Shown: piece by piece, positions 3,613-41,944 of the stretch
Layout: every line of letters begins with the position of its first letter
Numbering within the stretch: the stretch's first letter is position 1
Assembly (NCBI GenBank): GCA_023267195.1
Contig: JAHFNT010000003.1
Span: forward strand, 74,841-121,967
Direction of reading: 5' to 3'
Source: Candidatus Nomurabacteria bacterium
GTDB taxonomy: Bacteria > Patescibacteriota > Minisyncoccia > Phycocordibacterales > UBA9973
Length of the DNA: 47,127 nt
The notes under the pieces: model-generated
The model's input: only the letters and a program-made list of their open reading frames with translations
Database searches by the model: none
What the model was told of the DNA's origin: nothing
Translations under genes and position numbers: made by a program

Positions 3613-5607
3613 ATGGGAAAAGAAGATTTAACAAAAAAAGCAAGAAAGCGAATAAAACCAAGACAAGAAACTGCGCCCCTAACACAGAAAGAAGGAGAAC
3701 ATATAGAGAAAGATTTAGCTGCAGCACAAATACTTAAGGGGGTCAAGGGAAGAATAGATACGGGGAAAAAACTAAGAGAAAAATTAGAGGGTAATTTGAG
3801 TTTGGCACGTGCAGAACTATTTGAAAGAACAGCGTCAGTGAAAATAGCAGAGCCAGAAGAAGTGAAAGCAGCACTTGAAGAAGTAGAGGCACAGCAACCT
3901 ACGTCGCTAGAAAAAGTTGAAACTGTGGATGTTGCAGAATCAGTAGATACTAGTGATTTGCCAGAGGAGGTCAAAAAATTGATTAATGGCGAACTACAAA
4001 AAATAATAGATAAAACAAAATTAGCCAAAGACCTAGACGTTGCAAGTTTTTTGAAAACAGAAAAAGAACTGCTTAAAAGCAACCCTATAAAATATTTTAG
4101 CGAAAAAGCAATAAATACTGAAAAGCGTTTAAAACAAATTCAGGGAAGCAAAGTACTGCAAGAACTAGATGAAAGAACAGCGGAATCTTTAATTTTAAAG
4201 GATCGCACCGAAAACCTGCAAAAAATCTTAAGGGCATTAAGGGAGAGACGAGACGCCAGGCTATCATCAGCAAAATTTAATGAGATGGAGCCTATTTCCC
4301 GTGCCAATACAGAAAAAGTATTGGCGGCCATAGCTAAAGCTAAAACCACACAAATGGCACGTGGAGAAGAAGTTACACCCGCTCCTGTGCCAGAGGTGGT
4401 GGTAGAAGAAGGATCGGAATCGAAGGCAATAATTGAAAAAGCAAGAGGAACTTTAAAAGAAAGGGCGCTCAAGCTCGTTGAGCAAAGAAGAGAAGAAACA
4501 GAAGAGAACACGGGGAAGTCTTTATTTGGTAAAAAGTACAGAGTACTGATTACTGGAGCGGCAGCAGTATTAGCATCCGTCTTTTCATTGCATAAGCTAG
4601 ACAAAATTTTTGGGTCGGGGACAAAAATAGAAGATAAAAAATCTTCTATTTTGGCAGAAAGTGCAATCTCTGCAGAAGATAAAACAGTAATAAGAGAAAG
4701 ATTAGAAAAAGCTGGGGTAAAAATAAACCCACGGAGTTTTGAAAGAACAGTACCTGCAACATCAGAAACAAGTGCGGAAGAACCTCCGAAAGATGAAACA
4801 GAAATAGAAGAAGAGGAGGAGGACGAAGGAAACGAAAGAGTGTTTGGGTCTGTAACTGAAGCAAGGTCCAAAAAAATGAGGGCGCCAGAGGAACATGAAG
4901 AAAAACTGGAACCAGAACCAAAAATACATGGATTACCAAAACCTGTACTTCCTGTAGAGCCGGGAGAAGAGGAAAGATTGGAGTTTACAACAGAGGAAGA
5001 GACAGCGCCTGAAGATTTTATATTGAAACCTAAGGCAAAAAAGGAACCAGAAAAATCAGGGGGAGAAAAACTGACCAGAAGAGAACGAGAGAGAGAAGAA
5101 GTTTTAAGTAAATTAAAAATTACAAAATTTACTGAAGAAGAGGAACCTGAACCAGAGCCTGTACTGCAAACAGAACCAATTAAAGTTGAGACTTTGGATG
5201 AATACAGAAGGAGATTAGATGAAGGTGCGGTGGTACCAGAAGTAGAAGTAGAACAAAAACCTACTGAAGCTGAAAAAATAAAAGGGGAAATTGAAAAAAC
5301 AATGGATAATGCAGAAGCAGAAAAGGTAGTAGAACAAGAATCAGAAACAATAAATCCATTCCAGAACAGGGAAAACTTTATAAAATTTGTATGTAAAGAT
5401 GATTTGAAGAGATGGAATAATTTAAAAATCCTGAAGGCAGGATATGTGATAAAACATAAGATTACTGGGAAAAATGATCCGACTTTTGAACAATTAGTGC
5501 GATCTTTACGTGGTTTATCTGAATCGACGGGGAAAAAACCTAAGATTTGGTTCGGAAGAGAAACGGTTGGGGAATACGTAGATCGAATATTTGAAAGAAA
5601 AGGATAA
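3613..5607 (+). CDS. membrane-anchored acidic protein with C-terminal domain shared with the first gene
   Basis: I do not recognise a family. The N-terminal 300 residues are highly charged and predicted helical or coiled coil. A single hydrophobic segment lies near 308-328 (VLITGAAAVLASVFSLHKL). After it comes a very acidic, Glu/Pro-rich, low-complexity region (about 370-560) with runs such as EIEEEEEDEG, which is likely extended or disordered. The last 80 residues are ordered-looking and contain IKFVCKDDLKRWNNLKILKA and WFGRETVGEYVDRIFE. They match the end of the 1081-aa protein at IKF, D, W, LK.LKA, L..L...TG..P..W..FG.ET...Y. The overall plan (cytosolic coil, one membrane pass, long spacer, small terminal domain) suggests display of the terminal domain outside the membrane. 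The 517-aa minus-strand ORF opposite it is a codon-bias shadow. Confidence 0.8.
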   Translation: MGKEDLTKKARKRIKPRQETAPLTQKEGEHIEKDLAAAQILKGVKGRIDTGKKLREKLEGNLSLARAELFERTASVKIAEPEEVKAALEEVEAQQPTSLEKVETVDVAESVDTSDLPEEVKKLINGELQKIIDKTKLAKDLDVASFLKTEKELLKSNPIKYFSEKAINTEKRLKQIQGSKVLQELDERTAESLILKDRTENLQKILRALRERRDARLSSAKFNEMEPISRANTEKVLAAIAKAKTTQMARGEEVTPAPVPEVVVEEGSESKAIIEKARGTLKERALKLVEQRREETEENTGKSLFGKKYRVLITGAAAVLASVFSLHKLDKIFGSGTKIEDKKSSILAESAISAEDKTVIRERLEKAGVKINPRSFERTVPATSETSAEEPPKDETEIEEEEEDEGNERVFGSVTEARSKKMRAPEEHEEKLEPEPKIHGLPKPVLPVEPGEEERLEFTTEEETAPEDFILKPKAKKEPEKSGGEKLTRREREREEVLSKLKITKFTEEEEPEPEPVLQTEPIKVETLDEYRRRLDEGAVVPEVEVEQKPTEAEKIKGEIEKTMDNAEAEKVVEQESETINPFQNRENFIKFVCKDDLKRWNNLKILKAGYVIKHKITGKNDPTFEQLVRSLRGLSESTGKKPKIWFGRETVGEYVDRIFERKG

Positions 5608-5630
5608 ACTATTTGTGCTATATTTGATTT

Positions 5631-7649
5631 GTGATACACCCAAAAGATCATTTGGACGGTTTGAATGATAGGCAAATAGAGGCGGCGCTTCATCTCGAGG
5701 GTCCGCTACTCATTGTGGCGGGTGCGGGTGCGGGGAAAACTAAAACTATCACGCATCGCATCGTAAATCTGATTAAAAATGGCGTGGCACCGGAGAAAAT
5801 TTTGGCAGTCACCTTTACCAACAAAGCGGCGAAGGAAATGCGCGAGAGAATTATGTCTGCTATGGGCGCCGAGAATCTTCTTGAGTGGGGTCTCTCGCAG
5901 GCCGGCGGGCCGAGAGGGAGCGCTCCGAGAGCACGCGGAGACAGCGACCGCACGAGAGAAGGATTTTCGGCGCCTTTCGTCAGCACTTTTCACTCACTCG
6001 GAGTTTATATTATAAAAGAAAATGCCAGACTGCTCGGGTTGACGAAGTATTTCACCATTTTAGATGAAGGGGATACTACCACGCTCATCAAAAATATACT
6101 GAAAGATCTAGGAATAGATCCAAAAATGTATGATCCCAGAAAAATAAAAAATATAATCTCGCGCGAAAAGGGAAAGTTTGTGCATTTGACTGATTATGCA
6201 GAACAAGAAAATGGAACCTTGGGTAAAATAGTGGCGCAGGTTTGGAATTTATATGAAAAACAAAAAACGAAAGAAAATTCTCTTGATTTTGATGATTTGC
6301 TCTTAAAAGCAACGAAGCTTCTGAAAGAAAATGAGGAGATTCGCAAAATTTACCAAGAAAAATGGGAATATATCCACGTGGACGAATATCAAGACACGAA
6401 TGAAGTTCAATATTTGATGTCTAAATTGCTTTCGGAAAAAAATAGGAATATTTGCGTTGTGGGAGATGCTGATCAAAATATTTATTCTTGGCGAGGAGCA
6501 AATCTAAAAAATATTTTGAGTTTTGAAAAGGATTATCCAAATGCCAAAATAATTTTACTTGAACAAAATTATCGCTCCACACAAAATATATTGGAAGCGG
6601 CCAATGAAATAATTAAGAAAAATAAATACCGACCGGATAAAAATTTATTTACTAAAAACAAAACGGGTGAAAAAATCGGGTTGTATGAAGCGCTTGATGA
6701 GACAGATGAAGCAGAATTTGTGGCAACAAAAGTTTTAGAAATTATGGATAAGGGATCCGCTTTTAGCGAAATTGCAGTTCTCTATCGCGCGAATTTCCAA
6801 TCACGCGCGCTAGAGGAGGCAATGCTTCGATACAATATTCCATATCAAGTTTTGGGCGTTAAATTTTTTGAAAGAAAAGAGATTAAAGACACCTTGGCGT
6901 ATTTGCGCGCAGCTTTGAATCCGGATAGTTTGTCGGATATAAAAAGAATTATAAATTTCCCGACGCGAGGCATCGGCAAAGTGACCTTGGCAAAAATTTT
7001 TGCAAATGATAAGGAAAACCTGCCGACAAAAGTGAAAATAAAAGTAAATAATTTTTATGAAACATTAGAGGAAATAAGGAGGGAAATAAAAATTTTAAAA
7101 ACAAGCGAAGTGATAAAATTTGTAGTGAAAAAGTCCGGCATTGAACAAGAACTCGCGAGTGGAACGGAAGAGGATCGAGAAAGATTGGAGAACATTAAAG
7201 AGCTCGCGACATTGGCCCTGAAGTATGATAATTTAACGGAGGGAGCTGGGGTAGAAAAACTTTTAGAGGATGCTTCGCTGGCATCAGATCAGGATAGTTT
7301 GATAGAAAGAGGGACAAAAAAAGAATTAGTAAATGCGGTCAAACTTATGACTGTCCATGCTTCAAAAGGACTTGAGTTTAAAGGGGTTTTTATCACTGGT
7401 CTCGAAGATGGACTTTTCCCGCATGAACGGCAAAATGAAGTGGAGGGGCAAGATATGGAGGAGGAAAGGAGGCTTTTCTATGTTGCGCTTACTCGCGCCA
7501 AAGAAAAATTATTTTTATCCTTCGCCAATTTTCGCACCATTTTCGGCTCGCGCCAGATTAACACTCCTTCAGAATTTATCTCCGACATTCCAGCCGATCT
7601 GCTAGAGAGGGAAGGCGAGGCAAAAGGAATAAAAACTATTTACATATGA
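5631..7649 (+). CDS. uvrD: UvrD/PcrA-type superfamily 1 DNA helicase
   Basis: ATP-driven 3'-5' DNA helicase used in nucleotide excision repair and in removing protein or replication blocks. All SF1A motifs are visible in order: Walker A AGAGAGKT (about residues 31-38), motif Ia FTNKAAKEMRERI, motif II VDEYQDT, motif III GDADQNIYSWRGA, motif IV NYRST, motif V TVHASKGLEFKGVF and motif VI ERRLFYVALTRAK. At 672 aa it is slightly shorter than the usual 700-720. The start is GTG, 24 bases after the previous gene, with a TATATT-like box just ahead. Its TGA stop overlaps the ksgA ATG (ATGA), showing translational coupling and that TGA terminates. Between motif Ia and STFHSLG is a GC-rich stretch, LSQAGGPRGSAPRARGDSD, unlike the AT-rich surroundings. 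It looks like an in-frame repeat insertion. Confidence 0.95.
   Translation: MIHPKDHLDGLNDRQIEAALHLEGPLLIVAGAGAGKTKTITHRIVNLIKNGVAPEKILAVTFTNKAAKEMRERIMSAMGAENLLEWGLSQAGGPRGSAPRARGDSDRTREGFSAPFVSTFHSLGVYIIKENARLLGLTKYFTILDEGDTTTLIKNILKDLGIDPKMYDPRKIKNIISREKGKFVHLTDYAEQENGTLGKIVAQVWNLYEKQKTKENSLDFDDLLLKATKLLKENEEIRKIYQEKWEYIHVDEYQDTNEVQYLMSKLLSEKNRNICVVGDADQNIYSWRGANLKNILSFEKDYPNAKIILLEQNYRSTQNILEAANEIIKKNKYRPDKNLFTKNKTGEKIGLYEALDETDEAEFVATKVLEIMDKGSAFSEIAVLYRANFQSRALEEAMLRYNIPYQVLGVKFFERKEIKDTLAYLRAALNPDSLSDIKRIINFPTRGIGKVTLAKIFANDKENLPTKVKIKVNNFYETLEEIRREIKILKTSEVIKFVVKKSGIEQELASGTEEDRERLENIKELATLALKYDNLTEGAGVEKLLEDASLASDQDSLIERGTKKELVNAVKLMTVHASKGLEFKGVFITGLEDGLFPHERQNEVEGQDMEEERRLFYVALTRAKEKLFLSFANFRTIFGSRQINTPSEFISDIPADLLEREGEAKGIKTIYI
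5887..5961. repeat. GC-rich palindromic element inserted in frame in uvrD
   Basis: A GC-rich island in an AT-rich gene, with self-complementary blocks GGCCGGCGGGCC and GGGAGCGCTCCG. It encodes a Gly/Arg/Pro-rich segment placed in the variable loop after helicase motif Ia, where a length change is tolerated. The ends are approximate. Confidence 0.6.
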
Positions 7650-9487: not shown

Positions 9488-12400
9488 ATGATTTTCAAAA
9501 ATAAAAAAATACAAAAAATTATTTCATCTCTTTTGGTCATTGCGGTGCTTGCCCCATCTCTGGTTTTCTTTGTTGCTCCCAAAAAAGTAAATGCTTCGGG
9601 TACGCCAGTTTTAGATTTTTTAGGAAATGCATTAAAGTATGTGGGAAATCTTTTTACACACTCAACAGCAGTATCCTCTGCCACAACCGCAAGTTATGCC
9701 GCGAAGGAATGGTATGAATTGATACTTGAGCAGGTTCTTCAGGCTGTTGCCAGAAAAGCCCTACAAGAAATAACTAAAAGTACCGTCAATTGGATAAATA
9801 GTGGCTTCCATGGAAGCCCGCTCTTCCTAGAAAATTCAGACTCTTTTTTCCAAGACATCGTGAAATCTGAAATAAAATCACTAGTTAATGAATTCGGATA
9901 TGATTCTTCTAGATTTCCTTTCGGTAAAGATTTTTCTTTAAACACAATAATGTCCTACAAGAGGACACTGGATGATAACGCTGTATACACTTTGAGTAAA
10001 GTCACCAATGACCCTGCGCTACTTAGAGCTTATCAAAACAATTTCAATGTTGGTGGCTGGAATGCTTTTCTCCTCAATACCCAATATCCACAAAATAATT
10101 ACCTGGGATTCAAAATGCTCGCCGAACAAGAACTTGCGAGAAGAATCTCTGCATCACCTGGCGCAAAAAATGCAATAACAAAAGTGAAAGAAGCCCTCCA
10201 GCAGGGAAATGGCTTTTTATCTCCACAGACTTGTCCTTCAAATCCCGCATACAATAATGGTTATAATGAATTCAATAAACCCTCCTTTAAGCCATCGGCA
10301 GACTACAACCCCCCACATCCTTATCCGGCAGACGATACAATTGGTTTTACAGCAAAAGAAATAGCAGAAAATGCATTGTATGATCAAACTTGGCAAGCGG
10401 GGGTCGCCATAGAAAAAACAAAGTTTGAAGCAAAAAATACCTGCCCCAAGGGACTGGTGGCTACTACACCAGGGGCAGTGGTATCAAACCAAATAACAAA
10501 CGCGCTGGGGTCGCAGTTGCGCCAGAGCGAACTTGGCGCCGCCTTGGGAAATAGTCTTTCTCAAATTTTTGACGCTTTGCTCAATAAACTTTTGGATGAA
10601 GGATTAAATGCTCTAGCAAGCAAAACTAATCCAGATCCAGAACCAGACAACTGGAGCTATGGAGGATTGCGTCTTGATGGATCCGATGGCACTAGCGATG
10701 ATCCGTTTGCTGGATTCGACGAAATAGTTTCACTAAAACAATTTAGAAAGTTGTTGGATGGATATTTTATAGGAACTTGCAGTAACATAAAGGATTCCAA
10801 TGGCAATGATCTAGCCGACCAGGAAAATGTGCCCAAGGAACAATGTGAATCTCAAAGCATCACTGGTTATAGCTTTGGAACCTGCTCCGGTATAAAAGTT
10901 AATGGCATTCAGTATCCAGATCAAGAGGGTATACCGAGAACGACCTGTGATGCTATTCCAGGCGCCACTTGGACAAAGGTGGGAACTATATATCCAAATA
11001 CAACCACCTGGACCAGAAACTCTCCACCATTGCAAGATTATATTCCTGGAGACATAGCCAATACCGAAGAAGAAATAGCCCTGCTAGATAATGGACAATT
11101 AACCAGCGGATCTGCCTCAAGTGTAAACCCAAATTCAATCGGCACCTGCACAGGCGAAGATCAGATAGGTTCTTATACTGCTCAGACCACTCAATCTGAT
11201 TGTACCGCAATAGGAGGGGTATGGACTCCGACCTATTCTTCCTCATCGTCTGGATTGGCCAGCTCTTCTGGCAATGCAAACTTGGGTATTCTCCAATTGG
11301 TAAAATTGATTCTGGAAAAAACTATAACCCTTGATCAGTGCATCCCTGGGCCAGATAAAGGCTGGGAAGATAGACTAAAAGCGGAACAGTCAAGGGTTGG
11401 GAAAAGATTAACTGACGATATGAGCGACGATGATCCACTAAAAGTAAAAGCCTCTAATGACATAATGCGCGAATTAAAATTTGCCGTAGATTCATTCAAG
11501 GACTGGATAAGTTTTGCCATGATAGGTAAGCCAGCCCCAAAACTTCCTAACCTTTCGCTTCCTAATTCAGTAATTTATATTGATGAGGTTAAGAAAATAG
11601 ATGATCTGCCTCAACAATCAAAAGAAGTGACAGATACCGTAAGAGTAAAACGCCAGACGCTAGCTAGACTGGAAGCACTAAAAGCAAACTTGGAAACAAT
11701 ATCAGACAATATTAAACCTTTAGAAGAGCCAACACCAAAAACTGCCTATGAAAATCAATTAATATCACTATGGAAACAATATAAAGCACTTCGAGCCTCA
11801 ATTTCATCCACAAATAGTATAGAAAATACTAGAAACCAAAGAACGGTACTAGAAGAATGGTCAAATAAGCTGGAAGAACCCGTAGACCCAAACGACTCAA
11901 GCAAGGGAACAAAAGGTTTAATTCCCGAATGTTTGACAGAAAGAACAACAATGGGTTGGGATGCACCTGACCCGACGGGCAAGGGAAATAGCAAACTAAC
12001 CACGTTAACTACTCCTCAGCAAATCATCAAAATATATGCAGTATTATCAACCAGAGAGGGAAATAGTACGGCAAGCATTATTGGCGGACTGACCGGTGGC
12101 TTGGTGGGTAGTATATTGGGTGGATTATTTGGTACAGAAACAATAGAAGATCGTATTGCAGAAATTGAGTATCCACTAAAGGGTACAGAAAATGAACAAT
12201 TCTGCGGCTTGCCAATTATCAACGGCTACAGCCACGGTGAAGTCATCAGACAAGATAGTTCCAATGAATTAATAACCACCAATGGAGCCGTCAGTGGCGG
12301 AGCTCCGGTTCCTTGTGATTCTGGATTGGATAATACTTCTCCAACAGATCCAGTTTCAAACAGTGCTGACAGTAGTGCGAGTGGTAGCGGGGGTACGAGA

Positions 12401-12772
12401 CAAACTGGTTTTTGTGGCAGTATTGGTGTCGACCCTACCGGGACCGGCACAAGTGGAGGCAGTAGTGGAACATTTATTGGGACTGGGCGAGAGCAATTTA
12501 CCTTTAGAAATCAAGCAGCCTCATATTTCTATCCGAATACGACAGATCCGATCACCGGTGAACAATATGCCGCCGGCACTAATGGATATACAAACTTACC
12601 GATGGTCAATGCGCAATATGTCTACGGCGACATCACTACTACTGGCGTGGCCAGCTGGGGAATAGGTTTGGGTTCTTCCAAAGATGAAAGAATAAGCATA
12701 GACATAGATTGCAACACCGTCTTCAAAGCCAACAGGACAGACTACACCCATGCAGGAGATCCGAGTTTTTAA
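9488..12772 (+). CDS. large secreted protein of the T4SS-like locus with cysteine modules
   Basis: A 1094-aa exported protein with no family I can name. Signal peptide about 1-36 (KIISSLLVIAVLAPSLVFF...VNASG). The mature N-terminal third is helical. Near residues 428-580 are three copies of a short cysteine module, GTC-(12-21 aa)-C, two of them ending in a Gly-x-Trp type motif; the same module occurs in the two other exported proteins of the locus. A helical, charged region follows (about 600-830). Then comes a Gly-rich hydrophobic patch, IIGGLTGGLVGSILGGLFG (about 860-880), which could insert in a membrane, and a Ser/Gly/Thr-rich tail. The position before VirB6, PrgI and VirB4 is typical of CPR secretion clusters and suggests an extracytoplasmic part of that apparatus. 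It ends 11 bases before the VirB6-like start. Confidence 0.85.
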   Translation: MIFKNKKIQKIISSLLVIAVLAPSLVFFVAPKKVNASGTPVLDFLGNALKYVGNLFTHSTAVSSATTASYAAKEWYELILEQVLQAVARKALQEITKSTVNWINSGFHGSPLFLENSDSFFQDIVKSEIKSLVNEFGYDSSRFPFGKDFSLNTIMSYKRTLDDNAVYTLSKVTNDPALLRAYQNNFNVGGWNAFLLNTQYPQNNYLGFKMLAEQELARRISASPGAKNAITKVKEALQQGNGFLSPQTCPSNPAYNNGYNEFNKPSFKPSADYNPPHPYPADDTIGFTAKEIAENALYDQTWQAGVAIEKTKFEAKNTCPKGLVATTPGAVVSNQITNALGSQLRQSELGAALGNSLSQIFDALLNKLLDEGLNALASKTNPDPEPDNWSYGGLRLDGSDGTSDDPFAGFDEIVSLKQFRKLLDGYFIGTCSNIKDSNGNDLADQENVPKEQCESQSITGYSFGTCSGIKVNGIQYPDQEGIPRTTCDAIPGATWTKVGTIYPNTTTWTRNSPPLQDYIPGDIANTEEEIALLDNGQLTSGSASSVNPNSIGTCTGEDQIGSYTAQTTQSDCTAIGGVWTPTYSSSSSGLASSSGNANLGILQLVKLILEKTITLDQCIPGPDKGWEDRLKAEQSRVGKRLTDDMSDDDPLKVKASNDIMRELKFAVDSFKDWISFAMIGKPAPKLPNLSLPNSVIYIDEVKKIDDLPQQSKEVTDTVRVKRQTLARLEALKANLETISDNIKPLEEPTPKTAYENQLISLWKQYKALRASISSTNSIENTRNQRTVLEEWSNKLEEPVDPNDSSKGTKGLIPECLTERTTMGWDAPDPTGKGNSKLTTLTTPQQIIKIYAVLSTREGNSTASIIGGLTGGLVGSILGGLFGTETIEDRIAEIEYPLKGTENEQFCGLPIINGYSHGEVIRQDSSNELITTNGAVSGGAPVPCDSGLDNTSPTDPVSNSADSSASGSGGTRQTGFCGSIGVDPTGTGTSGGSSGTFIGTGREQFTFRNQAASYFYPNTTDPITGEQYAAGTNGYTNLPMVNAQYVYGDITTTGVASWGIGLGSSKDERISIDIDCNTVFKANRTDYTHAGDPSF

Positions 12773-12783
12773 AATTTAGAAAA

Positions 12784-15195
12784 ATGAAAAAAATAGGATT
12801 ATACATTCTAATACTCATAGCTCTAGTTGGAATATTCGTTCCAAATGAAAAAGCGCGGGCACAGAGCCCGGATGGACAAGGCACGTGTTTTGATTCTGAC
12901 GATAAGCCAACCACTCTCAATCAAGCACAATGTGGATTAAATTCTGGAACATTAACTAAAAAGGCTTACTACTGGGTACCAACAGGTTCAAGCACCCCAT
13001 CAAACCCTCTCTCTGCTTATGACCAATGCGTAAAAGATAAAGGTAGTGCAGCAAGTTGCCAAGGTTTATCGGGGGCACCAAAAACTGATCCTAATAAATC
13101 AGCATTTGAACAAGAAGTTGAATCAAATATTTGTTCAATGAATCCGTTAAGTAGTGGCAGTTTCTGGCCTGGTTGTTTTATACAAGGTTTTTATGCCATT
13201 TTCTATGTTATTCCTGGCTGGATATTGTGGGTAGCGGCATACTTCTTTAATGTTTTAATATCCATAACATTGAGTAGTACTTTCTTCAAGATGGGCTTCG
13301 TTTCTGAAGCCTGGGGAATTGTGAGAGATATTTCAAATATCTTTTTCATTCTGATTCTCCTGTATGTAGCCATAAAAATTATTTTGGATTTAGGAGGACA
13401 CGAAGCGAAAAAAATGATTGCCAACGTAATAATTATTGCGCTCTTAATAAACTTCTCGATGTTTTTCACCCAAATTATTATTGACTCTGCAAACATAGTA
13501 GCACTTGTCTTTTATAACAAAGTGCAAGTTTCCACAAAAGACGCCCAAGGAAAGGAAAGGCCGTATCAAAACACAGGAAGCGGAGAAAAGGATGTCGCGG
13601 GCGGATTAGTAAACGCTTTTAACCCTACCAAATTAATAACTGAAAATTATTTAAATCAAGCTAAAACAACAACAGTAGATGTAAACGGGGTAGAAACAAC
13701 TGTTCCTGCCACCAGAGTTTCGCCAGGAATATTAATTGGGATGCTTCTTATCACTGGAGTACTAATGCTTTTTGCAGCTTATTGCCTTATTGTTGTTGGC
13801 TTAAGCTTTTTAGGAAGAATGATCGAACTTTTTGTTTTGATTATTTTCTCGCCCTTTGCCTTTATGTCTTTTACGGTACCTAAATTAGCGGGCGCTGACT
13901 ATATAGGGTGGAATAGTTGGTTTGATCGGCTAATTCAAGTGTCGTTTATGGCGCCGATTTTTATGTTCTTTTTATATTTTATATTTAAATTGGTTCATGC
14001 GGACATATTTGGTGGTCTAAAAAGTGGAACGACTTCAAGGATGATAGAGTCAATATTAATGATAGTGCTTCCAGCTTTGTTGATTTTAATTTTACTTCTC
14101 AAGGCTACAGAATTTGCGAAAAAGGGATCTGGAAAATTTGGAGAGATGGTGACAACCGGTGCCAAAATTGCTGGCGGACTGGCTGTGGGTGTAGCCGCCG
14201 GGGGAACAGCTCTAGTTGGCAGAGCTGCAATAGGGGGGACAACAGCTGCCCTTTCAAGGAGAGAGGGTGCAATGGCTCACGGAGAATATCTAAGGAATCT
14301 TGGTAAATGGAAACATGGACCAAAAACAACACCTCCTCCTATTGCTCCAAGAGCAAATATACTTGACAGGTTGGGTGGTAGAATTAATGCAAGCCAACTT
14401 AAATCAGGTGATATATCCCATGCTAGACATGAAATAGATGAGCTTAAAAAGAAAGCTGGGGTTGAAGGACTTTCAGACAAGCAGCTTTCTGGTGTAGATA
14501 AGAAAAACATGGAAATCTCTTTTGTTAAAGAAAAGAGATCTGAGGTTGAATCTGAAATACGTAAAGGATATGACGCAAAGGGAAGAGAGGTTAAAATTAA
14601 TGAAGATGATGCAAAAGATGCTGCGGGTAGATATTACACAGACGCAAATGGTAATAGAATAAATGCTACTGGTGAAAATGATTATAAGGCTCAGAGACGA
14701 CAAAAGCTTGTAGACGATTTGAAGGCTACACCTAGGGCTGGAGATTTGGACTCTTCTGGTGAACTTTCTGATCAAGGAAGAAAGAAGGTCGAAGATAAGT
14801 TGGGACAAGAATTTAATGAAATATTGAGAAAAGCGGCCCAAAGAATTGGTAGGGAAAGATATCGAGAACTAGAACATGAAGCCAAGGAAAAGGTTGGGGT
14901 TGGTAACCGATTAATAGCAAGAAGTACCAGTGGTTCATACGATCCTAGAAATCTTGCAAATATCAAAGCAGACAGAAGGGAAGGGTTGGGATTAAGATTT
15001 GGTACAGCATTAATTGCCGCAGTAGCTATGGGGATAAGACTTGGATTCAAAGAGGTGCCTAGCGCAGACCCAAAAAGGGACTTCTTGACCGAGATGAGGG
15101 ATATATTAGGAAACGCCATGAAGATAAAACTTGAAGTGAAGAGTGGTGGTTCACATGATGAAAGTCATAAAACTAGTGGTGGCGGACATCATTAA
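12784..15195 (+). CDS. VirB6/TrbL-like polytopic membrane channel protein
   Basis: Likely inner-membrane channel component of the T4SS-like machine. I chose the ATG at 12784 (803 aa), not the track's 12709, because it begins a clean signal peptide (MKKIGLYILILIALVGIF, ending ARAQ) and avoids overlap with the previous gene. After the signal peptide is one cysteine module (GTCFDSDDKP...C...W). From about 130 onward there are several hydrophobic segments, including VIPGWILWVAAYFFNVLI, ISNIFFILILLYVAIKIIL and a pair near 320-380. This spacing matches the VirB6 family of CPR genomes. Residues about 470-803 are a charged, probably cytosolic tail ending in His-rich GGSHDESHKTSGGGHH. The leader closely resembles that of the pilin-peptidase gene downstream (YILILI.L.G.F.P), suggesting common origin of the export signals. 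Confidence 0.85.
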   Translation: MKKIGLYILILIALVGIFVPNEKARAQSPDGQGTCFDSDDKPTTLNQAQCGLNSGTLTKKAYYWVPTGSSTPSNPLSAYDQCVKDKGSAASCQGLSGAPKTDPNKSAFEQEVESNICSMNPLSSGSFWPGCFIQGFYAIFYVIPGWILWVAAYFFNVLISITLSSTFFKMGFVSEAWGIVRDISNIFFILILLYVAIKIILDLGGHEAKKMIANVIIIALLINFSMFFTQIIIDSANIVALVFYNKVQVSTKDAQGKERPYQNTGSGEKDVAGGLVNAFNPTKLITENYLNQAKTTTVDVNGVETTVPATRVSPGILIGMLLITGVLMLFAAYCLIVVGLSFLGRMIELFVLIIFSPFAFMSFTVPKLAGADYIGWNSWFDRLIQVSFMAPIFMFFLYFIFKLVHADIFGGLKSGTTSRMIESILMIVLPALLILILLLKATEFAKKGSGKFGEMVTTGAKIAGGLAVGVAAGGTALVGRAAIGGTTAALSRREGAMAHGEYLRNLGKWKHGPKTTPPPIAPRANILDRLGGRINASQLKSGDISHARHEIDELKKKAGVEGLSDKQLSGVDKKNMEISFVKEKRSEVESEIRKGYDAKGREVKINEDDAKDAAGRYYTDANGNRINATGENDYKAQRRQKLVDDLKATPRAGDLDSSGELSDQGRKKVEDKLGQEFNEILRKAAQRIGRERYRELEHEAKEKVGVGNRLIARSTSGSYDPRNLANIKADRREGLGLRFGTALIAAVAMGIRLGFKEVPSADPKRDFLTEMRDILGNAMKIKLEVKSGGSHDESHKTSGGGHH

Positions 15196-16393: not shown

Positions 16394-16831
16394 ATGCAAT
16401 TCAAGGTTCCACAATTTTTGGATATAGAAGATAAAATTTTCGGCCCTTTTACTTTCAGGGAATTTGTTTATTTGGCCGGCGGCGCAGGTCTGTGTTTTGT
16501 TTTATATAGATTGCTTGGATTGGTGCTTGGCGCAATACCTATCTTGCTAGTTGGAGGGTTTTCTATTGCTCTTATTTATTATCGACCCAACAATAAACCT
16601 TTCATCAACATGCTCGAGGCGGGATTCAAATATTTTACCCAAAATAGGCTTTACATCTGGAAAAGAAATTTGAATAAAATTGGAAGCGAACGATTGCGCC
16701 TGGCACGGGAAAACAAAAATGAGGTAATGAAAGAATTCGGCTCCAGATTAGACAGTAGCAAGCTGCGAGACTTGGCTTGGAGCTTGGATGTATTAGATTT
16801 GAGCAAGCAAAAGTCAGCTGATAGCTTATAG
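16394..16831 (+). CDS. PrgI family membrane protein
   Basis: A 145-aa protein with the hallmark N-terminus of the PrgI family (QFKVPQFLDIEDKIFGPFT), two adjacent hydrophobic segments at about 25-68 with an RLLG turn between them, then IYYRPNNKPFINMLEAGF and a basic tail. PrgI proteins accompany VirB4 in Gram-positive and CPR type IV secretion clusters and are thought to be VirB3-like inner-membrane partners of the ATPase. Gene order here (VirB6-like, PrgI, TraC-like, VirB4) matches that. The stop codon lies inside an 18-base repeat, TCAGCTGATAGCTTATAG, that recurs at the end of the next gene. Confidence 0.85.
   Translation: MQFKVPQFLDIEDKIFGPFTFREFVYLAGGAGLCFVLYRLLGLVLGAIPILLVGGFSIALIYYRPNNKPFINMLEAGFKYFTQNRLYIWKRNLNKIGSERLRLARENKNEVMKEFGSRLDSSKLRDLAWSLDVLDLSKQKSADSL
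16814..16831 (+). repeat. 18-base direct repeat at the end of prgI
   Basis: TCAGCTGATAGCTTATAG, identical to 17539-17556. It contains the prgI TAG stop. The two copies bracket the 212-aa gene. Confidence 0.75.
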
Positions 16832-16907: not shown

Positions 16908-17546
16908 ATGGCCTTAAACGCAAAAGCAACACAAGAATTCATACCGATAAAAGAAGTCCGCGACGGAGTAGTCGTACTAAAAGACGGCGACTTGCGGGCA
17001 ATCGTACTTGCCAATTCAGTCAACCTGTCTTTGAAATCTTCTGATGAACAGAAAGCTACAATTCTACAATTCCAAAATTTTCTAAATACTTTGGATTTTT
17101 CCGTGCAAATATCGGTGCAATCGAGAAGACTCGACATCCGGCCATATCTTCTCTTGCTAGAAAACAGAATCAAGGTGCAAAGCGAACCTCTATTAAAACT
17201 ACAAACAAAAGAATATATAGAATTTATTAAAAATTTTACCGAATCGGTCGCCATCATGACCAAAAGCTTCTTTGTGATAGTGCCTTACACCCACACCGCA
17301 CTGAAATCAGATTCCGGGGTATTGAGTAGATTGTTTTCTAGAAGAAACAAAGAAGAAGAGCGCGCGGCCAAGCAGGTAGACTTTGAAGAAAAGAGGTCAC
17401 AACTTGAAGAAAGAGTGGCGGTCATCCAGCAGGGTTTGTCTCGTTGTGGCATAAATTCGGCGCAACTTGGTACAGAAGAAGTGGTAGAGGTATTTTATAA
17501 AGTTTTCAATCCAGGAGAAGTGGAGGGAAAGATTAAAATCAGCTGA
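16908..17546 (+). CDS. TraC/VirB4 N-terminal-domain-like protein
   Basis: 212-aa cytosolic protein. It begins with a region (FIPIKEVRDGVVVLKDGDLRAIV, residues about 11-33) like the N-terminal domain of conjugative VirB4/TraC-type ATPases, followed by FQNFLNTLDFSVQISVQSRRLD and an acidic coiled tail. It has no Walker motifs. Because the next gene already has a full VirB4 plan with its own N-terminal region, I read this as a separate companion subunit, not as half of a frameshifted VirB4. In CPR clusters a small protein of this type commonly precedes VirB4. It is bracketed by identical 18-base repeats that also provide its own and its neighbour's stop codons, which hints at a past duplication or mobility event. 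Confidence 0.7.
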   Translation: MALNAKATQEFIPIKEVRDGVVVLKDGDLRAIVLANSVNLSLKSSDEQKATILQFQNFLNTLDFSVQISVQSRRLDIRPYLLLLENRIKVQSEPLLKLQTKEYIEFIKNFTESVAIMTKSFFVIVPYTHTALKSDSGVLSRLFSRRNKEEERAAKQVDFEEKRSQLEERVAVIQQGLSRCGINSAQLGTEEVVEVFYKVFNPGEVEGKIKIS

Positions 17547-17556
17547 TAGCTTATAG
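17539..17556 (+). repeat. 18-base direct repeat at the end of the TraC-like gene
   Basis: TCAGCTGATAGCTTATAG, identical to 16814-16831. Here the TGA within it is the stop codon of the 212-aa gene. Confidence 0.75.
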
Positions 17557-17591
17557 GTTTTAGGTTGTAGAAAATGTTACAATAATCTTTA

Positions 17592-17619
17592 AGGTATAAG
17601 CTATGAGCTAAAAGCTATT
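17592..17619. repeat. AGCTATAAGCT-type repeat before virB4
   Basis: AGGTATAAGCTATGAGCTAA followed by AAGCTATTT, ending right at the VirB4 ATG (17621). Family shared with 7932 and 16871. Confidence 0.55.
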
Positions 17620-17620
17620 T

Positions 17621-19480
17621 ATGGACTTTTTTAAAAAATTATTTGGAAAGGAGGGAGAAAAGGACAACGTAGAGGCGCAAGCGTCTACCTTAGCTGTTTT
17701 GCCGGAGGAAATTTATGAGTCTGCTACCCTGGAACTCCAAGACGTGATCGCCCCGTCCGCCTTAAAAATCGGCCCCAAATCAATAAATTTGGGTGAAAAA
17801 ATAGCCCAAACCTTTTTCATCATATCTTACCCGAGATTTTTAAGCGATAATTGGTTTTCTCCCATCATCAATCTGGATAAGGTTTTTGATATTTCAATTT
17901 TTATTCATCCAATAGATACTTCGCTCATGCTCAGACAGTTTCAGAAAAAGGTAGCCGAAGTACAGAGCCAAATAAGCGTACGGGAACAGAAGGGGATGGT
18001 ACGCGACCCGATGCTCGATACCGCTTATCAAGATTTAGAAGGTCTCCGCGACAACCTGATGCAAGCCCAGGAAAAAATGTTTGATGTGGGTATCTATATT
18101 ACCATCTATGCAGACAATGAATTTGACTTGTTTAAAATTGAAAACGAAATTAAATCAATGTTGGAATCTAAGCTCATCTATATCAAGCCGGCGCTTTTCC
18201 AACAAGAGGATGGTTTTAAGAGTGTACTGCCCATAGACACAGATATTTTAAATGTGAACCAAAAATTAAACTCGGAACCTTTATCCAGCGTTTTTCCTTT
18301 CATCTCTTTTGACCTGACTTCTGATAGAGGAATACTCTACGGCATCAATAGGCACAATTCAAGTTTGGTTATCTTTGATAGATTTTCTCTGGAAAATTAT
18401 AATTCAGTAACCTTTGCCAAGTCTGGTTCCGGAAAATCCTATGCGACAAAATTGGAAATTTTAAGGTCGCTGATGTTTGATACCGATGTTATCGTCATCG
18501 ATCCAGAAAGAGAGTATGAATTTCTTTCGGACGCTGTCGGGGGGAGATATTTCAGCATTTCTCTTTCTTCTGATCACCATATCAATCCTTTTGATCTGCC
18601 AATACCGCACGAAGGGGAAACCGCCGAAGATGTGCTACGTTCAAATATAATAAATTTGGTAGGACTTTTTAGGTTGATGTTAGGTGGACTCACCCCCGAA
18701 GAAGATTCTCTAGTAGATAGAGCCATTTCAGAAACTTATGCCATCAAAGACATCACGCCTGAATCTGATTTTTCAAATATTGAACCGCCGCTTCTCTCTG
18801 ATTTTGAAATGGTGCTCTCGGGCATGGATGGTAGCGACTCTATCGTGCAAAGATTAGTGAAATACACGCGAGGCTCTTGGGCGACATTTTTAAATAGGCC
18901 ATCCAATGTCGATATCAACAAAAAGTTCGTGGTATTTTCCGTCCGCGACATGGAAGACGAACTAAAACCAGTCGCCATGTATATCATCATGCATTATATT
19001 TGGAATACGATAAGGAAAAATTTGAAGAAACGCTTGCTCGTGGTGGATGAAGCCTGGTGGATGATGAAATCCGAAGACACCGCCTCGTTTTTATATTCTA
19101 TTGCTAAGCGAGGCAGAAAATATTATTTAGGACTTTCCACCATCACCCAAGACGCAGCCGACTTCATGAAATCCCCATACGGCGTGCCCATAATTACCAA
19201 CTCCTCAATCCAGCTTCTACTAAAACAGTCGCCGACCACTATCGATCTTTTGCAAAAAACTTTCAACCTCACCGACGAAGAAAAATATTTACTTTTGGAG
19301 TCTGGCTTGGGAGAGGGAATATTCTTCGCTGGATTGAAGCATGTCGCCATTAAAATAGTTTCTTCTTACACCGAAGACCAGATTATTACCTCTGACCCAT
19401 CGCAAATACTCTCCAACAGGAAAGCCAAGGAGGAACAAGAAAATGCAAACCTCACCCGACCTTCGGCCACCCTCTCCTGA
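17621..19480 (+). CDS. virB4: VirB4-family type IV secretion ATPase
   Basis: Cytoplasmic hexameric ATPase that powers type IV secretion or pilus assembly. 619 aa. Seen: N-terminal region with FIISYPRFLSDNWFSPIINL; long coiled segment about 110-160; Walker A FAKSGSGKSYATK near residue 266; VIDPEREYEFL; Walker B LLVVDEAWWMM near 472; and the sensor/RecA-like C-terminal part AKRGRKYYLGLSTITQD. This set is diagnostic for VirB4 rather than VirD4, since the extended N-terminal domain is present and there are no membrane helices. No relaxase or VirD4 gene accompanies it here. The last codons (NLTRPSATLS) and the TGA stop are supplied by a palindromic element at 19450-19503, so the native C-terminus has probably been replaced or extended. 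Confidence 0.92.
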   Translation: MDFFKKLFGKEGEKDNVEAQASTLAVLPEEIYESATLELQDVIAPSALKIGPKSINLGEKIAQTFFIISYPRFLSDNWFSPIINLDKVFDISIFIHPIDTSLMLRQFQKKVAEVQSQISVREQKGMVRDPMLDTAYQDLEGLRDNLMQAQEKMFDVGIYITIYADNEFDLFKIENEIKSMLESKLIYIKPALFQQEDGFKSVLPIDTDILNVNQKLNSEPLSSVFPFISFDLTSDRGILYGINRHNSSLVIFDRFSLENYNSVTFAKSGSGKSYATKLEILRSLMFDTDVIVIDPEREYEFLSDAVGGRYFSISLSSDHHINPFDLPIPHEGETAEDVLRSNIINLVGLFRLMLGGLTPEEDSLVDRAISETYAIKDITPESDFSNIEPPLLSDFEMVLSGMDGSDSIVQRLVKYTRGSWATFLNRPSNVDINKKFVVFSVRDMEDELKPVAMYIIMHYIWNTIRKNLKKRLLVVDEAWWMMKSEDTASFLYSIAKRGRKYYLGLSTITQDAADFMKSPYGVPIITNSSIQLLLKQSPTTIDLLQKTFNLTDEEKYLLLESGLGEGIFFAGLKHVAIKIVSSYTEDQIITSDPSQILSNRKAKEEQENANLTRPSATLS

Positions 19481-19543: not shown

Positions 19544-20521
19544 ATGAGGTTTAGATTTTTGTATTTAATAATATTTATTTTTTCTGTAATAATTTTTCCT
19601 TTTAAGGTGAGTGCTGTATCCTCTAGCAGTATTTCAGTCAATGTGGTTCCAGAAAATCCAGCTCCGAATGAAAATGTGACCATTACCTTGAATAGCTATG
19701 GGAGCAACTTGGACAGCGTATTAATATCGTGGATTGTGGATGGGAAAAATGCACTTTCTGGAATTGGAAAAAAGTCTTTTTCTTTTAGAGCTGGGGAGGC
19801 CGGGGAAGCCACCAATGTTACCGCCACAGTATTTTTGCCGGATGGATCAATAGACAAGAGAATATTGATTCGGCCCGCCGTAATGACCCTCCTGTGGCAG
19901 GCAAATGATTCTTATGTCCCACCGTTTTATCGTGGCAAGGCCTTGCCAACGCCAGACAGTGAAATAAAAGTGGTCGCTATGCCAGAAATAAAAAGCGGCG
20001 CAACGCTGGTAGACCCGCGCAACATGACTTATGCCTGGAAGAAAGATTATACCAACAACGTGGACGGCTCGGGTTATGGTAAAAATTCTTTCGTTTACGT
20101 AAATGATTATCTAGAAGATGGAAATAATATCAGCGTGGTGGTCTCCACTGTTGACCAAGAACATTCCTCGCAGGCAAGCATAGACATAGGAACGACAGAG
20201 CCGAAGCTGGTGTTCTATAAAAGCTATCCGGACCTGGGAACGCTTTGGGACAGAGCGCTCGAAGATGGCCATATAATCAATGGAGCTGAAATAATAGAGG
20301 CGGCGCCATATTTCATCTCCCCGAAAGACATCCGTATACCGAGTTTGAACTTTGTTTGGTCCATTAACGACTCGCAAATTGCCGTACCGATTTTTAAGAA
20401 AAATATTCTGCCCCTCCAGGCGCAAACTGGAACTTCTGGAACGTCCAAAATTAAACTGGAAATAAATAACATCTACAAAATTTTTGAAACAGCCAATAAA
20501 GAAATCAACGTAAACTTTTAA
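19544..20521 (+). CDS. secreted beta-rich (Ig-like) protein of the T4SS-like locus
   Basis: 325 aa, exported. Signal peptide FLYLIIFIFSVIIFPFKVSA (about 5-24). The mature part begins with Ser- and Asn-rich beta sequence (ISVNVVPENPAPNENVTITL) that looks like an Ig or PKD-type domain, followed by a second domain with ATVFLPDGS. No cysteines or membrane anchor were noticed in the mature part. I do not recognise a named family. A TATAAT box six bases before the ATG implies its own, leaderless promoter although it is in line with virB4. It ends one base before the pilin-peptidase ATG, so these two are translationally linked and probably function together at the cell surface. Confidence 0.75.
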   Translation: MRFRFLYLIIFIFSVIIFPFKVSAVSSSSISVNVVPENPAPNENVTITLNSYGSNLDSVLISWIVDGKNALSGIGKKSFSFRAGEAGEATNVTATVFLPDGSIDKRILIRPAVMTLLWQANDSYVPPFYRGKALPTPDSEIKVVAMPEIKSGATLVDPRNMTYAWKKDYTNNVDGSGYGKNSFVYVNDYLEDGNNISVVVSTVDQEHSSQASIDIGTTEPKLVFYKSYPDLGTLWDRALEDGHIINGAEIIEAAPYFISPKDIRIPSLNFVWSINDSQIAVPIFKKNILPLQAQTGTSGTSKIKLEINNIYKIFETANKEINVNF

Positions 20522-20522
20522 G

Positions 20523-21656
20523 ATGAAAAAACTTTTTCCATACATTCTAATACTGATTTCATTAATAGGGTTGTTTAACCCGATCACTCAGACAGAAGCT
20601 CAAAGTCTTTTGGGAACTTGTACGTTTACCGATGGGAGAGAACCACTTTTAAATGTTCCAGCAGAAGAATGTACCTTTATTTTAAATGGTGGGTTTTGGA
20701 CTCAAAACCAAGGAACGGGGGGAGGAGCAACACAAACTACAAACTCAAACAGTTTAGGAACTTGCAGACAAGGCACAGCAGGTGAGCCAATCCAAAACAT
20801 GACAGAAAAGGATTGTAAAGCTCAGGGGGATGGATGGATCTGGATTTCTTATTATTATAATTTAGCCCCACTACCTTGTACTAGCACAGGCCCCAATGAC
20901 ACCTCCTGTGTTAATGGAAAACTTACAACTTTTGACCCTACCCAGCCCAACAACCTAGGCGCGTATCTGAATTTAATGCTAAAACTATTTATTGGTATTT
21001 GCGCGGTTTTGGCAGTCATAATGATTATCATGGGTGGAATCGAGTATATGACGAGCGAGATTGCTAATACTAAAGAAGACGGCAAGAATAGAATTACCAA
21101 CGCAATCTTCGGACTCCTCTTGGCTTTGGGTGCGTATATACTTCTTTTTACCATAAATCCAAATTTGCTGAACACTGAACTAAAAAGTTTGACGACTGTG
21201 ACAGTTAATGTAACTTTAGCTGATGCCATACCAAGCGATACAGGTACCCCACCCGGAATCACTAGTGGATGTAGCTCTGGAATAGTAAAAACTACTATCA
21301 GTATGTTCGCTTGCTCTGATATTCTTAATAACGTTAACGCGATGCTTGCTGCTTCTAAAAGCGCCGGACTTAATATAACCGGTGGAGGGTATAGATCATT
21401 TGAACAGCAAAAACAATTAAGAATAAAGTATTGCAAGGGTGATTATCAAAACCCAAATGCGCCATGTGATCCACCAACAGCACTCCCTGGAATGTCAAAC
21501 CATAATAATGGCAAGGCTTTTGATCTCCAGTGTGATGGAGTCTTTATTCAAACCAGAGACAATAAGTGTTTTGTATGGTTACAAGCAAATGCTGGCAAAT
21601 ATGGTCTTTATAATTTACCATCAGAGCCCTGGCACTGGTCAGTTGATGGAAGATAA
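20523..21656 (+). CDS. T4SS pilin (TrbC/VirB2-like) fused to an M15 (VanY-type) peptidase
   Basis: 377-aa fusion. Residues 1-27: signal peptide (ILILISLIGLFNPITQTEAQ). About 31-105: two cysteine modules GTC...C...W. About 145-211: two hydrophobic helices with IIMGGIEYMTSEIANTKEDG between them and LLLALGAYILLFTINPNLL after, which is the pattern of the CPR T4SS pilin family. About 245-377: a D-Ala-D-Ala carboxypeptidase/endopeptidase domain with GGGYRS (Arg291), SNHNNGKAFDL (His327, Asp334) and EPWHW (Glu368, His371). The Zn ligands and catalytic Glu therefore appear intact. M15 enzymes cut peptidoglycan peptides. The fusion would place a wall-cutting enzyme on the pilus subunit. Alternatively the two helices only anchor the enzyme and the protein is not polymerised. 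Confidence 0.88.
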   Translation: MKKLFPYILILISLIGLFNPITQTEAQSLLGTCTFTDGREPLLNVPAEECTFILNGGFWTQNQGTGGGATQTTNSNSLGTCRQGTAGEPIQNMTEKDCKAQGDGWIWISYYYNLAPLPCTSTGPNDTSCVNGKLTTFDPTQPNNLGAYLNLMLKLFIGICAVLAVIMIIMGGIEYMTSEIANTKEDGKNRITNAIFGLLLALGAYILLFTINPNLLNTELKSLTTVTVNVTLADAIPSDTGTPPGITSGCSSGIVKTTISMFACSDILNNVNAMLAASKSAGLNITGGGYRSFEQQKQLRIKYCKGDYQNPNAPCDPPTALPGMSNHNNGKAFDLQCDGVFIQTRDNKCFVWLQANAGKYGLYNLPSEPWHWSVDGR

Positions 21657-21668
21657 TAATTAAATTTT

Positions 21669-23036
21669 ATGTCAAAAAGAAATTTTATACTTTTAACAAT
21701 AGTCTTGATCATCATAGTTGCGGTGGTGTTTGGATTTCTCTATTTTAGAAAAGGCGCGACTCTGCCCGGAGAAGACGGCACTGGCACCAATTTTCTTTCA
21801 CAATTTAATCCTTTTGGTAGTGGCACGAAGACACCCCCTGCTACCACCCCTCCGGCCGACGTTTCTGGATATGAACCAACACCCAAAGCAGAGGTAAAAT
21901 TAAAAAAAGTTTCCAGTATGCCTATTGCCGGATTCACTGTTTATCAAAAGGAGAGATTAAAAGAAATTTCTACTCCGGAGCCGGTAGAATCTACAACACC
22001 AACTTCAGACCCCTCCCTAACCCTCCCCTTAGCAGGGGCGGGGAAAAATTCTAAAACAATTCCAACCCAACCACCGACAGAATTTATGCCAGCCTTGAGA
22101 TATGTCGCTCGTAACAACGGAAATGTTTATCAAACTTTTGCAGACAAGTTGGTAGAAAAGAAATTCTCCAACACCATAATCCCAAAAGTGTATGAAGCTC
22201 TTTTTGGTAGCGGGGGGGAGTCTGTGTTTATGCGATATTTAAAAGCGGATGGCAAAACGATTGAAACTTTCGCTGGGAATTTACCGAAGGAATTATTAGG
22301 GGAAGAACCGACAGGAGATAAAGAAATAAAAGGCTCATTTTTGCCGGAAAATGTCAAAGATATGAGCCTATCTCCAGATGCTTTTAGCTTATTTTATTTA
22401 TTTGAAGCCGAAGACAACATAGTAGGCACAACTTTAGACCTAGCAACCAACAAAAAAACCCAAGTGTTTGATTCAGCTTTTACTGAATGGCTATCGTGGT
22501 GGCCAAACAGCAAAACTATTACTCTCTCTACCAAACCTTCCTCTGGTATCCCGGGATATATGTATACCCTCGATCCTAGCAGTGCAAACAATAAAGGTCT
22601 AACACAAGTCTTGGGCAATATAAACGGACTCACTACTTTGATGAGTCCGGATGGCAAATTTATACTCTATGGTAACGACAACTTATCTCTGAGTGTTTAC
22701 CAGAAAGACACCAAAACTTCAGAACTACTCGGGGTGAGAACTCTACCGGAAAAATGTGTTTGGGGTAAAACAAGCGCGGTTGTTTATTGCGCCGTGCCAA
22801 AATTTATTGAATCAGGTGGCTACCCAGAGAAGTGGTATCAAGGGGAAACATCTTTTTCTGATCAAATTTGGAAGATAGATGTTGCAGATGGAAATGCAAC
22901 TATTCTGGTTGACCCGATAACCATCGAGGGAGGGGAGGAAATAGACGGCATTAAACTAATGGTAGATGATAGTGAAAATTATCTATTTTTTGTAAATAAA
23001 AAGGATTCCTTCCTTTGGGAATTAAAACTAAATTAA
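21669..23036 (+). CDS. membrane-anchored beta-propeller-like protein
   Basis: 455 aa. An N-terminal anchor (FILLTIVLIIIVAVVFGFLYF, spread over residues 5-25) is followed by a Pro/Thr-rich linker and, from about 210, repeated blocks such as MSLSPDAFSLFYLFE, WLSWWPNSKTITLST and LMSPDGKFILYGND. These are the S-P-D/W-x-P-[DN] strand motifs of TolB/WD40-like propellers. It would present a binding surface outside the membrane. The linker carries a short palindromic element (22010-22043) translated as PSLTLPLAGAG. It is the last gene of the plus-strand cluster, 12 bases after the pilin fusion, and ends four bases from the convergent jag stop with no visible terminator between. Confidence 0.75.
   Translation: MSKRNFILLTIVLIIIVAVVFGFLYFRKGATLPGEDGTGTNFLSQFNPFGSGTKTPPATTPPADVSGYEPTPKAEVKLKKVSSMPIAGFTVYQKERLKEISTPEPVESTTPTSDPSLTLPLAGAGKNSKTIPTQPPTEFMPALRYVARNNGNVYQTFADKLVEKKFSNTIIPKVYEALFGSGGESVFMRYLKADGKTIETFAGNLPKELLGEEPTGDKEIKGSFLPENVKDMSLSPDAFSLFYLFEAEDNIVGTTLDLATNKKTQVFDSAFTEWLSWWPNSKTITLSTKPSSGIPGYMYTLDPSSANNKGLTQVLGNINGLTTLMSPDGKFILYGNDNLSLSVYQKDTKTSELLGVRTLPEKCVWGKTSAVVYCAVPKFIESGGYPEKWYQGETSFSDQIWKIDVADGNATILVDPITIEGGEEIDGIKLMVDDSENYLFFVNKKDSFLWELKLN
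22010..22043. repeat. short palindromic element in the propeller-like protein
   Basis: CCCCTCCCTAACCCTCCCCT followed by tagcAGGGGCGGGG. The hairpin CCCCTtagcAGGGG belongs to the same broad family as the ksgA element and is read in frame. Confidence 0.6.
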
Positions 23037-41413: not shown

Positions 41414-41944
41414 TTATTGCTGATTGAGCCAATCAATCATTTTTTGGAAAGTCAGAACTCCTGCTTCTCCAGTCACCGGCAAACCTTCCGCTTTTTGGAA
41501 ATTCATAATATCAGTTTTTGTCCCTGGACCAAAATCATTATCTACTTTTTTAGAAGTGTTATTATAGATATTTAAAAAGGTTTGAAGGGTTCCGACTTGT
41601 GTTCCAGTTGATTTTAATTTAAGGACTGCTTTCTGGTCCAAGAGTTTTTGTAGGGAAGTGATAAGATCTTGGTATTTAGAAAGAGGTGGTTTTGTGGTGG
41701 TAGGATTAGTGTTCAGTGTTTGGTTTGCTGGCATCTCTTGTTTTGGTGGCTGCAAATCAGCTAGCTCGCTTTTTAATTTAGCTATTTCTTGTTCTAATTC
41801 TTTGTTTTTGGCTTCGAGTTCTGCTTGCCTTTCTTTGCTAACATGCAAATCTCCCGGTTCTATTGTCTTAAAAGCCCAATAGCCGACGATGCTCATGCCG
41901 CCGATAATCATTATTGAAATTAATATAAATTTAAAATTTTCCAA
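41414..41944 (-). CDS. membrane-anchored peptidoglycan-binding protein
   Basis: 176 aa. N-terminal membrane segment (FILISIMIIGGMSIVGYWAF), then a coiled coil (ERQAELEAKNKELEQEIAKL), a Thr/Pro linker, and a C-terminal PG_binding_1 domain with GTQVGTLQTFLNIYNN and GPGTKTDIMNFQKAEGLP. It would tether the membrane to the wall or locate an enzyme there; no catalytic domain is attached. The start codon is TTG (41944), nine bases after TGCTATACT, an extended -10. Its stop lies seven bases from the tRNA-Lys end, convergent with it. Confidence 0.85.
   Translation of the reverse strand: MENFKFILISIMIIGGMSIVGYWAFKTIEPGDLHVSKERQAELEAKNKELEQEIAKLKSELADLQPPKQEMPANQTLNTNPTTTKPPLSKYQDLITSLQKLLDQKAVLKLKSTGTQVGTLQTFLNIYNNTSKKVDNDFGPGTKTDIMNFQKAEGLPVTGEAGVLTFQKMIDWLNQQ

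Follow-up and report, generated by a model that had tools for sequence, protein, structure and literature searches.

The open frame at positions 20523-21656 of the window (the whole stretch of 47,127 nucleotides that was analyzed) encodes a T4SS pilin core joined to a VanY-type peptidase domain, and in related loci the same core, at the same position in the operon, is followed by other peptidoglycan enzymes. The pilin core is conserved, and the C-terminal enzyme looks like an exchangeable module, comparable to a tool head. That a wall enzyme accompanies a T4SS pilin had been the original prediction; the exchangeability of that enzyme goes beyond it and is the main point here. We put at about 60% the probability that the product is a pilin-like subunit docked on the T4SS, whose exchangeable C-terminal wall enzyme does the job of VirB1 in cis.

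The fused protein and its operon

The gene is a single forward-strand frame, ATG to TAA, with a product of 377 amino acids; 1 nt separates it from the end of the preceding ORF and the following one begins 12 nt downstream, so that it is tightly operonic. GC content has no clear step across the junction between pilin and enzyme, and a tail of different base composition is accordingly dismissed. Beside the hydrophobic segment of the signal peptide there are two more, at about 145-178 and about 190-213, which as membrane helices with a short basic loop complete the arrangement typical of VirB2-like proteins; the usual small size of pilins lacking large extra domains, which is not strictly defining, is exceeded by this enzyme-bearing protein. 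Both cysteine modules have the pattern GTC...C...G.W. Modules of this kind (GTC...C...GxW) also occur in a large exported protein of the operon (9488-12772) and in a VirB6-like one (12745-15195).

The Pfam pilin family, PF18895 (T4SS_pilin), matches residues 150-206 with 27.5 bits, barely above its cutoff of 26.6, and in same-genus orthologs many scores are over the cutoff and some just under (for example at L007, L009 and L013). The VanY family, PF02557, matches residues 266-373 with 46.5 bits against a cutoff of 25. An AlphaFold2 (AF2) model built from seven sequences has a pLDDT of about 83 for the M15 domain and about 74 for a two-helix hairpin (145-177/181-211), with low confidence elsewhere, and the PDB structures matched by fold at E<=1e-3, 16 in number, are without exception VanY, LdcB or VanXY enzymes, the best being VanYB (5hnm, 2.1e-7). 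The metal ligands His327, Asp334 and His371 and the general base Glu368, correctly named in the original prediction, are intact within SxHxxGxAxD and ExWH motifs and are invariant across seven VanY-tailed relatives; alignment A5 of the pilin core (30 orthologs) has 14 invariant columns. ORF, Pfam and model thus agree on one polypeptide holding signal peptide, two cysteine modules, pilin and M15 domain, as had been proposed. The two findings named beforehand as telling against it, no homologs with both domains and no pilin family for the helices, were not encountered, as the fusion recurs in independent genomes and the helical part has its match. From profile, motifs and fold the M15 domain is predicted to be a zinc-dependent peptidase, which could, but need not, cut a wall. 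VanY and LdcB enzymes trim stem peptides, and neither VanY nor YkuD types, in the roles best known for them, make holes on their own.

Features of the pilin-enzyme gene and its T4SS neighbors in the window
Feature	Positions	Strand	Evidence
PrgI/VirB3-like	16394..16831	+	PF12666, 34 bits; conserved order
212-aa ORF immediately before VirB4 ATPase	16908..17546	+	no Pfam match; order conserved
VirB4 ATPase	17621..19480	+	PF19044, 86.4 bits
325-aa exported protein, conserved upstream neighbor	19544..20521	+	immediately 5′ of pilin in nearly all loci
Signal peptide, residues 1-26	20523..20600	+	hydrophobic segment 3-22; N-terminus of like type in same-genus orthologs
N-terminal outside region of variable sequence, two Cys modules, residues 27-112	20601..20858	+	C33/C50, C81/C98
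T4SS pilin core with two membrane helices, preceded by YxLLAPLP lead-in, both conserved, residues 113-216	20859..21170	+	PF18895; A5 alignment; AF2 hairpin
Linker from pilin core to enzyme, residues 217-265	21171..21317	+	AF2 low confidence at 211-243
Predicted M15 (VanY-type) peptidoglycan peptidase domain, residues 266-373	21318..21641	+	PF02557; fold match; conserved residues
455-aa membrane-anchored protein, conserved downstream neighbor	21669..23036	+	immediately 3′ of pilin in nearly all loci

The order of genes, PrgI, VirB4, 325-aa gene, pilin, 455-aa gene, R3H/YidC and dnaA, is retained in nearly all of a set of over 100 loci taken from this organism’s genus, family and order. The 212-aa ORF and the 619-aa VirB4 ATPase (16908-19480) occupy separate frames, as they do in nearly every related locus reaching that far, and the former is possibly a split-off N-terminal part of VirB4. 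With one genome sampled per species and many assemblies fragmented, the pilin core was detected in 129 of 147 genomes of the family and 201 of 247 of the order; a related-locus scan of genome contigs yielded two loci only. In other families of the order (L113, L114) the same slot is occupied by a bare pilin of 131-145 aa, and the enzyme is therefore an addition to, or a loss from, an otherwise ordinary pilin gene. Elsewhere in the window, 41414-41944 encodes a PG_binding_1 domain on a small protein anchored in the membrane.

Tail domains and their exchange

In same-genus genomes the pilin core is recognizable almost everywhere, though sequence matches mostly end right after it, and the full frames of the orthologs show that the C-terminal domain differs genome by genome. 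The fusion of pilin and VanY, for which the original prediction had suggested a search, is present in six other genomes, and pilins with other wall enzymes in dozens; the VanY tail being one among many types, a single odd fusion can be dismissed. Pfam families exceeding their cutoffs on orthologous pilins are VanY, NlpC/P60, YkuD, Peptidase_M15_4 and SLT_2, and across 64 same-genus loci the tails are VanY, NlpC/P60, YkuD, M15_4, SLT or SLT_2, or belong to several unnamed enzyme-like families. No tail is present at 11 of the 64. Ten same-genus loci, most from a single clade, are without an enzyme tail, and at one more a contig end truncates the locus. A substitute hydrolase gene was looked for in the slot of the tail-less loci and none was found, which disposes of compensation by a separate gene there; with neither tail nor substitute, the enzyme is not always needed in these loci.

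Clustering of tails from genus, family and order gave, as the commonest group, one termed ‘HWH’ (26 members), followed by NlpC/P60 (14), SLT-type LysA (8), VanY (7), LysB, M15_4 and SLT_2 (6 each), YkuD (5), ‘NPGN’ (4) and smaller groups. When 105 tails were scanned with Pfam, 15 families were matched, 12 of which are peptidoglycan enzymes or close relatives of these (overlapping counts: NLPC_P60 14, SLT 12, VanY 7, M15_4 6, SLT_2 6, YkuD 5, Amidase_5 5, Extensin-like_C 5, SLT_3 3, CHAP 3, SLT_4 2 and Amidase_2 1); the remainder are three single stray matches. N-terminal parts of these proteins, 97 in number, served as an internal control: Pfam matched fn3, Ig-like and CBM_10 models in them and no wall enzyme. 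Active-site motifs are retained in 7/7 VanY, 6/6 M15_4, 5/5 YkuD and 11/14 NlpC tails; the motif pattern is departed from by three NlpC and three HWH tails, some of them visibly cut or degenerate.

The HWH tails (L015:1912-2427 and 25 relatives, alignment A7) have the motif GGTExWxH...H...TVDL...E..HWH, and invariant His and Asp and near-invariant Glu and His, together with their position, suggest that they too may be wall enzymes. Fold searches with their AF2 model (pLDDT 87, pTM 0.80) against PDB and viral structures gave nothing at E<=0.001, and comparing their profile with that of the VanY tails was equally negative. An M15-like descent is unsupported by these searches, and the HWH tail is a candidate for a new metal-enzyme fold. 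The ‘NPGNIGNTDDG’ tails (L023, L027, L033 and L082) have no match in Pfam, PDB or PHROGs. A lysozyme-like identity of the LysB tails was not upheld, the PDB matches being marginal with a mixed alignment and absent with a cleaner one, and PDB gave no support for one L099 tail as a chitosanase. Unnamed tails compared with PHROGs gave nothing significant, and PADLOC gave no match.

A locus tree of 66 same-genus loci was made from flanking genes (the 212-aa ORF, VirB4 and the 455-aa gene), and at least 38 changes of tail type are required on it. For the 53 same-genus loci with a classed tail the number is 35, compared with 37.5 ± 1.5 under shuffled labels (30 of 300 shuffles were as low), and for all loci it is 46, compared with 50.4 ± 1.7, a slightly stronger signal. 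Tail type and locus phylogeny are thus almost unlinked. The nearest sister of the window’s locus has an M15_4 tail, not VanY, and in close pairs, with VirB4 89-95% identical and the core 64-91%, tails of different classes are unrelated. Conversely, the window’s VanY tail and its counterpart in genome G033 share 75% identity, the cores only 64%. Some operons have two pilins with differing tails, NlpC and SLT-type in two cases (L054 and L103) and SLT-type and amidase-like in another (L090).

Outside the order most long pilin frames are extended at the N-terminus only. In a locus from another family of the phylum (L151) two pilins stand in tandem and bear SLT, Amidase_2 and GDSL-lipase domains, and one from the same class (L148) has a pilin with a His-rich tail unnamed by Pfam; the arrangement has therefore arisen or spread more than once. 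At L151 the pilin at 3925-6054 is fused to SLT and GDSL lipase, and an adjoining second pilin to SLT and Amidase_2. On the Iamia plasmid NZ_CP050950 (L177), a VanY-like gene adjoins T4SS genes. Its product is the nearest relative of the M15 domain in a plasmid collection. The gene is labeled a glycopeptide resistance gene (29.7% identity) but more likely encodes a conjugation wall enzyme, and it independently ties enzymes of this type to conjugation.

What the enzyme may do

Through its signal peptide and two helices the pilin core would insert with both ends outside. As the core is conserved and located in a T4SS operon, docking to the machine, at its channel or at the pilus base, is most likely. 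Docking would position the enzyme where the machine must cross peptidoglycan, and action there on a wall would be the cis equivalent of a separate VirB1. The enzyme would be replaceable, relatives placing other wall enzymes behind the same core in the same position. In the organism’s own genome, which is about 91% complete, no SLT enzyme (VirB1-type, PF01464) was matched; other wall enzymes, two M23 and one stand-alone VanY, are there, which counts against this reading. A bifunctional penicillin-binding protein is present, so that the cell makes a wall.

The same genome has six plain T4SS pilins (G000:C5:126682-128889; L143 and L163-L167) in a separate array far from the T4SS operon, and the fused protein is therefore probably a specialized or minor pilin-like subunit and not the sole pilin. 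One 271-aa frame of the array holds two pilin domains. A cultured Saccharibacterium has a comparable pilin series and cannot grow epibiotically without its T4SS and pilin array (PMC10633639). As to the original idea of a wall enzyme on a T4SS pilin, then, the T4SS operon and the lack of an SLT match in the genome favor it, and that the protein rides on a pilus is conjectural, keeping in mind the six plain pilins elsewhere.

The source organism is a tiny, probably parasitic bacterium. Because enzyme type swaps fast among relatives with near-identical VirB4, the evidence leans towards the target being a changing outside wall, for instance that of a partner, over the cell’s own wall during channel assembly, though neutral replacement may also account for the swaps. 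A tentative extension, for which we would claim perhaps one chance in three, would have tails swapped between lineages to suit the partner’s wall and so determining which bacteria can be exploited, with the pilin as a fixed chassis in a new T4SS design.

Slightly less probable again is that the tails are aimed solely at the partner (host) cell, as a surface or tip-exposed lysin with which to attack the host, attach to it or feed on fragments of its wall, the type of host wall imposing diversifying selection. This would fit the almost random scatter of enzyme classes over the locus tree and the adhesion-type modules in the N-terminal parts. It would also fit the occurrence, among M15 relatives, of phage endolysins and tail tape-measure proteins, whose target is a foreign wall, and the need for T4SS and pilin array in epibiotic growth of the cultured relative (PMC10633639). 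However, random replacement among equivalent enzymes acting on the organism’s own wall would yield an identical pattern.

That the helices are a mere membrane anchor for a general surface wall-remodeling enzyme, the T4SS link being incidental, was an alternative in the original prediction; it is weakened and now unlikely, though it retains some standing, since every known Gram-positive VirB1 homolog is membrane-anchored (PMC12857230) and the pilus could come from the six plain pilins. The core, with its invariant columns, is the conserved part and both ends are variable, unlike in a plain anchor; moreover, bare pilins share the slot in other families and the gene is always within the T4SS operon. 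More doubtful still are mostly non-catalytic tails serving as peptidoglycan-binding clamps by which the machine would be fixed in the wall. In favor of this, enzymes of the YkuD and carboxypeptidase types do not make holes, and a wall-binding role would permit exchange of folds; against it, catalytic residues are retained in almost every class. An artefact of assembly or gene calling can be set aside, as single open frames with the same junction region and no internal stops are found in dozens of independent genomes.

Relation to known systems

The reading preferred here, a T4SS subunit with VirB1’s work in cis, bears on a 2025 survey of Patescibacteria T4SSs. The survey reports that VirB2-like pilins are widespread and VirB1 is rare, with most VirB2-containing genomes having no VirB1, and concludes that the pilus may not need VirB1 (PMC12102498). 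Its main text makes no mention of enzyme tails on pilins (PMC12102498), and text searches with incomplete coverage of the literature found no published description of pilin-wall-enzyme fusions. The missing wall enzyme appears, for this lineage, to be joined to the pilin itself, where a VirB1 profile search would not look, and the exchange of enzyme type among near relatives makes the question of own versus host wall breach, and that of host range, directly testable.

Patescibacteria PF18895/VirB2-like pilins have, as here, a two-helix core, proximity to virB4 and several paralogs per genome (PMC12102498); those so far described are short, in contrast to the 377-aa fused protein. VanY/LdcB carboxypeptidases of the M15 type have the fold and ligand set in common with its enzyme domain, though known ones are stand-alone or plainly anchored and not fused to a pilin. 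Known VirB1 is a separate protein, membrane-anchored in Gram-positives (PMC12857230). VirB1-type hydrolases (VirB1 itself, PrgK of pCF10, TraG of pIP501 and Orf14 of Tn916) are likewise wall enzymes encoded in a T4SS operon, and those of Gram-positives are membrane-tethered like the fused pilin and sometimes have several enzyme domains. However, they have an ordinary membrane segment as anchor, with SLT, MUR, CHAP or LytM domains. In the present case a VirB2-like pilin core serves as tether, and many unrelated enzyme families replace one another at a single locus. An SLT-type domain, characteristic of VirB1, is absent from the 377-aa protein, though present as a tail in relatives; judged by its sequence the protein is not a VirB1 homolog, yet it may work in a VirB1-like manner. 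Modular exchange of enzymes behind a conserved delivery part is familiar from phage endolysins, tail lysins and polymorphic toxins; unlike in these, a T4SS pilin is the conserved part here, encoded on the chromosome in an operon adjoining dnaA.
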